From a virus, in the IMG/VR virus record IMGVR_UViG_3300030419_000955, positions 1 through 28,297 of that record: a DNA stretch of 28,297 bases; one strand, 5' to 3'. The notes beneath the pieces are model-generated. The model saw only the letters and a list, made by a program, of their open reading frames with translations, was not told the origin of the DNA and did no database searches. The position numbers were made by a program, and so were the translations under genes. Of this stretch, positions 18,795-20,751 are shown in pieces (position 1 is the stretch's first letter; each line of letters starts with the position of its first letter).

Positions 18795-19103
18795 ATGGCA
18801 ACTAAAACTTGGCAAGTAAACACCCTCCAACGCGAACTCGCTGATGGGTATGTAAATAAAGTTATCTACCGTGTTAACGGTGAAGATGGTACTTATAAAT
18901 TCAGAGCTACTGGTGAAGTAGATCTTCCTAAGCCTGATACTCTTGTACCTTATGCTGATTTAACCGAATCACAAGTATTGGGTTGGGTTAAAGCAAAACT
19001 TGACGCTGATAATGCTGGTACTGTAGCAGCAATTGAAACAGCTGTAGAGAATGGTGTGAACGAACAGAAGACTCCAACAACCGGTGTCGGTAAACCTTGG
19101 TAA
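18795..19103 (+). CDS. Conserved phage protein of 102 residues, function unknown
   Basis: The protein is soluble and compact, beginning TWQVNTLQRELADGYV with a predicted beta-rich first half (KVIYRVNGEDGTYKFRATGEV) and a helical second half (ADLTESQVLGWVKAKL, TVAAIETAVENGV). I recall similar proteins in marine phages, listed as domains of unknown function. It has no signal peptide or membrane segment. Its place just after the fibres suggests a virion or fibre-associated role, which is inference. The 41-base gap upstream is A/T-rich and has no Shine-Dalgarno sequence. Its 3' end overlaps the next gene by 20 bases. Confidence 0.75.
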   Translation: MATKTWQVNTLQRELADGYVNKVIYRVNGEDGTYKFRATGEVDLPKPDTLVPYADLTESQVLGWVKAKLDADNAGTVAAIETAVENGVNEQKTPTTGVGKPW

Positions 19104-19488
19104 TATAGACTTACCCACACCCACGCTTCCTAAGCCCTTAGACCTGCCTAGAGTCTACCTGAAGGAGCCTAAAGCCCTCGTACCATCATATAAGCCTATG
19201 GTGGTACCTCCGGCTGATCTAGAGCGTCCTGAAGAGACTGAGGCAGAAGAGACAAAGGAGCAGCCTGAACCACCAAAGCTTAAGATACCGGTATTGGATA
19301 TTCAGATGCCGGTACCTGAAGCTGCGGTGGTAGTGACGGCTGTAACAACAGCGGTGATAGCAGTAACAACTACAACTATTACTCAATCTTTATTCGAACC
19401 TATCAAGAAGAAGGTTCAGAAGCAACTACAATCTAAAGTTGATGCATGGAAGAAAAAAAGGAAGGAAAAAACCTCCTCGGAAAGCTGA
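19084..19488 (+). CDS. Proline-rich single-span membrane protein
   Basis: This 134-residue protein starts at a GTG inside the preceding gene. Residues 1-75 are dominated by Pro with acidic and basic residues (PTPTLPKPLDLPR, EETEAEETKEQPEPP). Residues 79-100 are a hydrophobic Val/Ala/Thr segment that should span a membrane once. Residues 107-129 are strongly basic (IKKKVQKQLQSKVDAWKKKRKEK). Such a layout, a stiff extended arm, one span and a basic tail, is compatible with a lysis or envelope-spanning protein, but no family is recognised. It overlaps the holin-like gene by 43 bases, so the two are probably made together. An alternative is a virion protein. Confidence 0.65.
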   Translation: MSVNLGNIDLPTPTLPKPLDLPRVYLKEPKALVPSYKPMVVPPADLERPEETEAEETKEQPEPPKLKIPVLDIQMPVPEAAVVVTAVTTAVIAVTTTTITQSLFEPIKKKVQKQLQSKVDAWKKKRKEKTSSES

Positions 19489-19751
19489 AAGATGCTGCTG
19501 AGGATAACGAATCCCAAATACAAATCCTATCCACCTTCGTTCGTTTAGGCGTAGTTGTGTGGGCAGGGTTTATAATTACTCTTAATTATGTGGAATTACC
19601 TGTAATTAAGAAGGCAGGAAGCTCCGACATAACCTTTGTAGCTAGTATTTTTACCGGAGCTTTAGCTAGCTTTGGGCTCAATACATCAAATCAGAAAGGT
19701 AAATCAAGCTCTCCTGTTAATTGCCCTATGTTAGATAAGAAGAAAGAATGA
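19446..19751 (+). CDS. Holin-like two-span membrane protein
   Basis: The protein has 101 residues with a charged N-terminus, a first membrane segment at about residues 27-49 (STFVRLGVVVWAGFIITL), a short loop with KKAGSSD, a second segment at about 61-79 (ITFVASIFTGALASFGL), and a polar Lys-rich tail. Size and topology match small class II holins, which make the inner-membrane lesion at lysis; T7 gp17.5 lies at the equivalent place between fibre and small terminase. The start codon overlaps the upstream gene and the stop overlaps the next start (ATGA). No endolysin gene lies beside it. The membrane topology is well supported, the holin role is inferred. Confidence 0.65.
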   Translation: MEEKKEGKNLLGKLKDAAEDNESQIQILSTFVRLGVVVWAGFIITLNYVELPVIKKAGSSDITFVASIFTGALASFGLNTSNQKGKSSSPVNCPMLDKKKE

Positions 19752-20119
19752 AGAAATGGCTTTTACTCTTAATGCTGTTATCCCCCACGGTAGCAAGAGC
19801 AGAGTTAGTAACGCCTCGCTTCACCCAAGGCAGTATGAACTCAACCACTACAACGACCCAAGAGATAGTGGAAGAAATAACTACCACAACCTATGGGTCT
19901 GCATTAAACAAATGGTCAGGAGACAACATAACCCACACCTCAACATCTTCTGGCGGAATAGCGGATTCAGATTCGGTATTCAACATGACGACAGCTGGAA
20001 GCGACTTCACACTAGAGATAGTAACAAGAGCAGCCAGTCAGGTACTAGAAGTAACAGAAATCGAAAGAGAAATCGACACTACCTCTACTACTACCTCATT
20101 ATCAGTATTCTCACAATAA
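19748..20119 (+). CDS. Secreted threonine-rich protein
   Basis: This 123-residue protein begins with a clear signal peptide (KKWLLLLMLLSPTVARA, cut before ELV). The mature part is very rich in Thr and Ser (STTTTTQEIVEEITTTT, TTSTTTSLSVFSQ) with a likely beta structure and no cysteine. I recall close relatives in cyanophage genomes, always next to a second secreted protein; no function is known to me. The start overlaps the holin-like stop by four bases (ATGA). Its last codons are also read in another frame as the signal peptide of the next protein. Confidence 0.75.
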   Translation: MKKWLLLLMLLSPTVARAELVTPRFTQGSMNSTTTTTQEIVEEITTTTYGSALNKWSGDNITHTSTSSGGIADSDSVFNMTTAGSDFTLEIVTRAASQVLEVTEIEREIDTTSTTTSLSVFSQ

Positions 20120-20751
20120 GCCCTTTACGCGCTGAAGAAGGTGAAACAAATAACACGTCGAATCCAGTTGCAGCTGCTACCGGAAACGTCACAAATCAAG
20201 CCGTACAGTTCCAAAACAATGGAGCACCAAGTCGTCAGATTATTGGGCCAAACATATCTTGTAACGGTGCTACCATGACTTTTAGCCCATTCTATATGGG
20301 CAATCATACAACACCTTATGATGATACTATGACTCAACAGAGTTATACTGTAGCTGAGAACTGGGGAGGACAGATTAATTTCATGGTACCTCTTGATGGT
20401 TCTCTTGTTGAACGTTGTAAAGCTGCAGCAGATAAACAGATTGAGAAGATGGAATTAAATTACGAACTTGTTAGGATCGATAATTGTGCAAAGCTCCAAC
20501 AAAAGGGCTTTATGCTGATGCCTGGTTCTAGAGTTTATCATATATGTAGTGATGTAATTCCTATTTCCACATGGAAAAAAGCACAGGCTAAAGTCCTTGC
20601 TTGTAATACACCACCTAAGCCTTGGTGGAAACCTTGGCAGAAACCCCAACAAACATGTAAAATGAGTACTTTATCAGATCAAAAAGCTAAAGAAATAGAA
20701 GCAGCTAAGCAAACTTCTAAAAAAGAAACCACTACTACCACTAAAAAATAA
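19912..20751 (+). CDS. Secreted cysteine-containing protein, start uncertain
   Basis: The real protein seems to be residues encoded from about 20050 to 20751. In this frame a basic stretch (NRKRNRH) precedes a hydrophobic core (YLYYYLIISILTISPL) and a cut site LRA before EEGE, a good signal peptide, lying inside the last codons of the upstream gene. The mature part has six cysteines (at ISC, ERC, DNC, HIC, LAC, QTC), a conserved-looking stretch NGAPSRQIIGP with FSPFYMGNHTTP, and a Lys/Thr-rich tail. No ATG, GTG or TTG lies close before the signal peptide. The nearest ATG is at 19912, given here as the nominal start, and the residues between look like a shadow of the other frame. Starts at ATT 20098 or 20107, or frameshifting, are alternatives. 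A periplasmic role is inferred. Confidence 0.6.
   Translation: MVRRQHNPHLNIFWRNSGFRFGIQHDDSWKRLHTRDSNKSSQSGTRSNRNRKRNRHYLYYYLIISILTISPLRAEEGETNNTSNPVAAATGNVTNQAVQFQNNGAPSRQIIGPNISCNGATMTFSPFYMGNHTTPYDDTMTQQSYTVAENWGGQINFMVPLDGSLVERCKAAADKQIEKMELNYELVRIDNCAKLQQKGFMLMPGSRVYHICSDVIPISTWKKAQAKVLACNTPPKPWWKPWQKPQQTCKMSTLSDQKAKEIEAAKQTSKKETTTTTKK

Follow-up and report, generated by a model that had tools for sequence, protein, structure and literature searches.

The window, which is the whole 28,297-nt stretch of DNA analysed here, from a marine phage of cyanobacteria (positions 1 to 28,297 of the IMG/VR record IMGVR_UViG_3300030419_000955), holds two overlapping genes on the same strand, ORF1 and ORF2, with the gene of a small membrane protein on one side and the terminase genes on the other (Table 1). 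ORF1 bears its own signal peptide (MKKWLLLLMLLSPTVARA). The ORF2 frame, which is -1 relative to ORF1, is open from 19735 to the stop codon at 20749-20751, and its bases 20062-20133 read RKRNRHYLYYYLIISILTISPLRA followed by EEGE, in which a basic part precedes a hydrophobic core and an xRA cut site. This cut site (20131-20133) lies just beyond the ORF1 stop, so the part shared by both genes is 20062-20119. The original prediction of a signal-peptide-like stretch inside the end of ORF1, with ATG, GTG, and TTG absent in front of it, is confirmed over 150 nt upstream: the nearest canonical in-frame start before 20062 is the ATG at 19912, 150 nt upstream, and the next is the ATG at 19756. The former had been listed among the candidate starts, and the latter had been missed. 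The pair is reached through a chain of small overlapping genes (18795-19103, 19084-19488, 19446-19751, and 19748-20119), where the first two share 20 nt, and 19084-19488 and 19446-19751 share 43 nt.

Table 1. Genes and features at the ORF1/ORF2 locus, in positions of the window
Feature	Position	Strand	Description
Upstream small membrane protein (DUF6450)	19446-19751	+	TGA stop overlaps the ORF1 ATG (ATGA); ends 4 nt before ATG 19756
ORF1	19748-20119	+	ATG start; 123 aa, Thr-rich, exported, phrog_650; almost wholly nested in ORF2
ORF2, most likely translated form	19756-20751	+	ATG 19756, 331 aa, -1 frame relative to ORF1; phrog_848 / phrog_1755
Likeliest start codon of ORF2	19756-19758	+	Formed by the last base of ORF1 codon 3 and the TG of Trp codon 4; lies 8 nt past the ORF1 ATG
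Second in-frame ATG, possible alternative ORF2 start	19912-19914	+	Homologous site is the start in group D
ORF2 leader, 102 residues, hydrophilic	19756-20061	+	Coding wholly inside ORF1
ORF2 signal-peptide-like segment	20062-20133	+	SPase I-like site after the Ala at 20131-20133; 20062-20119 doubles as the ORF1 C-terminus
ORF2 predicted mature exported domain	20134-20748	+	Four Cys invariant in the alignment

Both proteins are direct sequence members of known phage families, ORF1 of phrog_650 (E 1.5e-31, positions 3-147 of the 147 of the profile) and ORF2, in its 331-aa reading, of phrog_848 and phrog_1755, known as "gp165" of cyanophages (E 6e-58 and 1e-52), and the Pfam search gave nothing usable for either. 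The portion of the gene from 20062 to 20748 also matches both PHROGs 848 and 1755, which probably split one single family because of inconsistent start annotation. Among phage records, tblastn finds ORF1 in 51 and ORF2 in 449, almost all of them from phages of Prochlorococcus or Synechococcus. The search of bacterial genomes returned 15 matches, mostly short marine contigs resembling phage DNA. Two ORF2 relatives with 28-29% identity lie on contigs of 188 kb (L422, Nonlabens xiamenensis) and 189 kb (L423, Prochlorococcus AG-418-C09), the size of T4-like cyanophages; they sit within bacterial assemblies and probably represent phage DNA that was binned or sequenced along with the host.

The gene pair is kept in cyanopodoviruses and T4-like cyanomyoviruses, and is present in approximately 390 relatives. 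Five scans of viral contigs, with 80 loci each, define groups A (the clade of the window), B (P-SSP7-like), C (T4-like cyanomyoviruses, with gp166/gp165 of Syn9), D (S-RIP-like), and E (P-SCSP2-like), while the freshwater myovirus DSL-LC02 was added separately as group F. These sequences share kinship, and raw counts therefore overstate their independence. Every member of groups A, B, C, and D (79, 81, 81, and 82, respectively) and F has ORF2 in the -1 frame of ORF1, and all 74 members of group E have it in the +1 frame. The sequence error that had been considered for this locus is excluded by this recurring frame relation, since the same arrangement is found in hundreds of independent contigs and in isolate genomes.

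ORF1 contains a canonical start in the ORF2 frame (ATG, GTG, or TTG) before the hydrophobic segment in 68/68 sequences of group A, 78/78 of B, 81/81 of C, 79/80 of D, and 74/74 of E; the frame of the sole exception (L254) fails to reach the overlap. The place of this start, counted from the end of ORF1, is specific to each group. In group E it is an ATG immediately at the signal peptide (-55 or -52), and in group F an ATG at -63. Group B holds starts at -111 (GTG, ATG, or TTG) and/or -66 (ATG or GTG), group C an ATG at -165, and group D an ATG at -192, and group A has both an ATG or GTG at -207 (the homologue of 19912) and an ATG at -363 (the homologue of 19756). When related phages are compared, as had been proposed, an ordinary start at the signal peptide thus appears only in the distant group E, where the ORF2 frame differs, and not in the others. 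Four members of group E (L384, L386, L401, and L354) have additional start codons in an ORF2 frame that stays open much farther back, as far as -158 or -176, which is perhaps the beginning of a longer overlap there too.

A Trp codon of ORF1 gives rise to the main starts of groups A, C, and D and to the -111 start of B: the third base of the preceding codon joins the TG of TGG. This third base is A in 68 of the 68 sequences of group C with the Trp and in 75 of 76 in group D; the Ser codons at this place in group C are TCA in 46 out of 46, compared to a background of 0.21 (0.21-0.32 across C and D). Judging by this codon choice, the start codons of groups C and D are under selection. Group C also conserves GGAGTGA before its ATG, with a Shine-Dalgarno pairing that beats that of synonymous resamples (-6.0 vs. 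-4.3); in the other groups this pairing is no better than in the resamples. In group B, a stop between -111 and -66 occurs in 11 sequences, each of which has ATG at -66; the -66 start is missing from 36 of the 44 sequences whose frame is open and whose -111 start is ATG or GTG, and TTG at -111 is always accompanied by a start at -66. The three group B sequences without either start keep the ORF2 frame open across all of ORF1, with an ATG 9 nt after the ORF1 start position.

The signal peptide of ORF2 is recognizable by its composition in five groups, where a basic n-region (net charge of +2 to +4 before the core) is followed by a hydrophobic core (Kyte-Doolittle group means of 2.1-2.7), small residues at -3 and -1, and Ala at -1. 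Synonymous change in ORF1 over this segment is cut to 0.55-0.56 of that expected. The ordinary ATG directly at the signal peptide in group E indicates that the segment is a real N-terminal signal. Cleavage by signal peptidase I probably occurs behind the RA at 20133 and would take away a leader of approximately 100 residues along with the signal peptide.

Selection on both frames of the overlap is observed in the window clade, where 66 sequences contain one single stop in the overlapping ORF2 frame, compared to 643 expected for the same protein with free codon choice. The controls exhibit no such avoidance, with 1006 stops in the +1 frame of ORF1 (761 expected) and 1512 in the -1 frame of the ORF2 portion outside the overlap (1350 expected). 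This non-overlapped part also served as the reference for synonymous change in ORF1, which becomes constrained only in the last 60 nt in group E, from about -123 in B, from about -213 in D and A, and from -213 in C, where the constrained region takes in the ribosome-binding region. The boundaries are also seen site by site, by counting those ORF1 codons where a T in the third base would make a stop in the -1 frame. Such a T is common upstream of -192 and almost disappears after it in group D; the change takes place at -165 in group C and at -111/-66 in B, and in group A none of the listed sites, from codon 2 on, holds a T. With both frames under selection, the locus is best regarded as a dual-coding pair of overlapping genes on the same strand, both proteins of which are presumably translated.

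The extent of stop avoidance in the window clade, which covers essentially all of ORF1, suggests that ORF2 most likely begins at ATG 19756. Among groups A, B, D, and E, the frame is open through all of ORF1 in 72 of the 78 sequences with an in-frame start within the opening codons of ORF1 and in none of the 201 without it (p ~1e-60, ignoring kinship), and the same contrast holds within group B (5/9 vs. 0/62, p = 1e-5). In addition, ORF1 codons 6-20 of group A are under a strong extra constraint, with 141 synonymous changes compared to 327 expected, which is absent in D and E and has a weaker counterpart in B at codons 11-20. Between -303 and -243, synonymous constraint in group A does not go beyond stop avoidance, so the sequence of the leader itself seems unimportant there. 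The bias towards AAA at ORF1 codon 3 was discarded as a sign of selection on this ATG, as it is equally strong in group B sequences without an ATG at that place. The window shows weak Shine-Dalgarno pairing at 19756, no better than at the ORF1 ATG.

In the main competing explanation, translation of ORF2 begins at ATG 19912, the leader has 50 residues, and the frame farther upstream is open as a relic or incidentally. The 19912 site is ATG or GTG in 65 of the 68 members of the clade, the homologous Trp site is the selected start of group D, and synonymous constraint resumes at about -213. Furthermore, one member of the clade (L036), where the ORF2 frame is closed at about -330, upstream of the 19912 equivalent, must use this equivalent. 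However, the proportion of ATG to GTG at the site tracks the neutral use of the Lys codons AAA and AAG (37:16 vs. 0.74:0.26), and another member (L007) has CTG at -207 while retaining the ATG at -363. The region from -303 to -207 in group A, upstream of the 19912 homologue, contains no stops in 66 of 66 sequences, compared to 128 expected, and at nine stop-prone sites upstream of -207 the group A tree shows at least 72 independent third-base changes, none of them to T, while control sites hold 15% T. A start at 19912 as the only one is improbable. Of the 10 relatives that have a fourfold-degenerate codon before the 19912 homologue, nine keep a purine in it, a hint that this homologue is also selected, and a secondary role for 19912 is possible. 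As for the original proposal of a start at 19912 with a long leader, the deep start within ORF1 stands, although probably not the precise codon, as selection in the clade keeps the frame open well upstream of 19912, to ATG 19756.

The explanation that we consider quite probable is that ORF2 is translated in the -1 frame from a canonical start within ORF1, most likely ATG 19756, and that its leader is cut off together with the signal peptide. According to this model, which we infer from the sequences, the two overlapping genes would encode two Sec-exported phage proteins. The ribosome would start ORF2 at ATG 19756, 8 nt past the ORF1 ATG, with ATG 19912 perhaps used too, and would translate a hydrophilic leader of ~102 residues, then the basic and hydrophobic signal peptide, and finally the mature domain. 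Signal peptidase I would cleave after the RA at 20133, so that the leader is lost and the exported product matches that of relatives starting right at the signal peptide. As the basic flank, the hydrophobic core, and the Ala at -1 hold in five groups, the mature protein would be the same whichever start is used. If the leader is discarded, the start codon would be free to move among different places in ORF1 during evolution. In the tree of the mature domain, full-length starts are found in group A and in the earliest-branching sequences of B, suggesting that both lengthening and shortening of the overlap are possible.

The TGA of the upstream gene, which overlaps the ORF1 ATG just before 19756, would suit re-initiation at either ATG. 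A more speculative extension of the model, which we regard as rather unlikely, is that the ATGs at 19748 and 19756 constitute a dual-start switch, where ribosomes coming from the TGA at 19749-19751 re-initiate at either of them and thus set the ratio of two cooperating exported proteins, the leader being a functional cytoplasmic domain or part of an ORF2 isoform. If this were true, the 102-residue leader would not be waste.

Other mechanisms fare worse than translation of ORF2 from a canonical start inside ORF1. A -1 programmed ribosomal frameshift from ORF1, giving a fusion of the two exported proteins, would agree with the constant -1 frame of ORF2 in groups A-D, but we judge it very unlikely. 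An in-frame X_XXY_YYZ heptamer never exceeds 25% in A, B, or D, and C has just one, a long way upstream at -372, so no slippery heptamer is conserved at the overlap. The stop-free stretch begins instead at the group-specific start codons, whose coincidence with the onset of stop avoidance and whose selection would be left unexplained by a frameshift, and in group E, ORF2 has an ATG of its own in the other frame. Initiation at a non-AUG codon right at the signal peptide (the ATT at 20098 or 20107, or another codon) would produce a whole or partial signal peptide of normal length; nevertheless, this option, also part of the original prediction, is hardly tenable, since these two codons are ATT in only 13 and 14 of 68 relatives and CTT in 48 and 54, an ATT start would omit the conserved basic flank, and both stop avoidance and synonymous constraint reach far upstream. 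Equally implausible is a non-exported ORF2 starting downstream of the signal peptide, as annotated in the public records of P-SSP7, NATL2A-133, S-RIP1, and S-RIP2, given the hydrophobic segment and Ala cut site conserved in five groups, one of them with an ATG at the front of the segment, and the absence of any ORF2-frame stop from the final 63 nt of ORF1 in groups A-D.

Structure models were built from alignments without rows from annotated records. ORF1 is predicted to form a long beta-hairpin (mean pLDDT 83), and ORF2 is predicted to be partly disordered and partly helical (mean pLDDT 69), with a helix at 113-147 of the folded stretch, the four invariant cysteines, and a single hydrophobic segment with a conserved cleavage site. 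Comparison with PDB structures gave no significant match for either protein. For ORF1, the top PDB matches are weak (E 0.04 and above), comprising tail or collar proteins of phages and pore-forming beta-hairpin proteins, and were not counted as evidence, while its three significant matches in a library of viral structures are all unnamed or uncharacterised viral proteins. As a working guess, held with low confidence, both proteins may cooperate in the envelope of the host at a late stage of infection.

Public records disagree on the start of ORF2. It is annotated at -363 in NATL1A-7 and 9515-10a and at -207 in P-SSP10, all three without ORF1, at -165 in Syn9, and downstream of the signal peptide in the four records named above. 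ORF1 is also unannotated in GenBank HQ337022, GU071102, GU071100, and PV340853 (loci L082, L083, L426, and L430), although tblastn finds it intact in those from podoviruses; in these records, gene callers retain just one of the two overlapping genes.

Overlapping genes are common in phages, and some Sec signal peptides have extended n-regions, in which a long N-terminal extension precedes an otherwise ordinary signal peptide. Known extended n-regions carry conserved motifs, unlike the ORF2 leader, most of which shows stop avoidance only. Rz/Rz1 from lambda and other embedded or overlapped two-component spanin genes represent pairs of exported phage proteins encoded in different frames, whose annotation is often wrong since overlaps are rejected by gene callers, and -1 overlaps are known among them (PMC6139136). 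ORF1 and ORF2 are likewise two exported phage proteins from overlapping genes in different frames. They were considered as a two-component spanin and rejected: contrary to Rz/Rz1, neither holds a lipobox (ORF1 from the window is devoid of any Cys, and the ORF2 cut site is RA followed by EE), and therefore they are not spanins by definition. The geometry also differs, as the embedded spanin gene starts within the larger one, whereas the larger gene of this pair begins shortly behind the start of the nested one and runs past its end. Overlap through an upstream shift of the start codon is a known route (2008, PMC2268670), and ORF2 resembles these overlaps in that its start lies upstream, inside its neighbour and in another frame. 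It differs in that several start positions coexist in one family, and in that the N-terminal addition is probably cut away by signal peptidase.

No earlier description of the ORF1/ORF2 overlap was found in the literature searched, nor any study applying ribosome profiling to these phages. What seems to be new is one single family whose start lies at several sites in its neighbour, with boundaries of selection that can be read from the sequence and a plausible reason for the harmlessness of this arrangement. The pair is widespread in phages of the main photosynthetic bacteria of the ocean, although public records disagree on where ORF2 starts and often omit ORF1. With a start at five or more places inside the neighbouring gene and a mature protein that is still recognizable, this family represents a natural experiment on the origin and persistence of long overlaps, and a leader that is cut off would provide a testable reason why such an overlap is tolerated.
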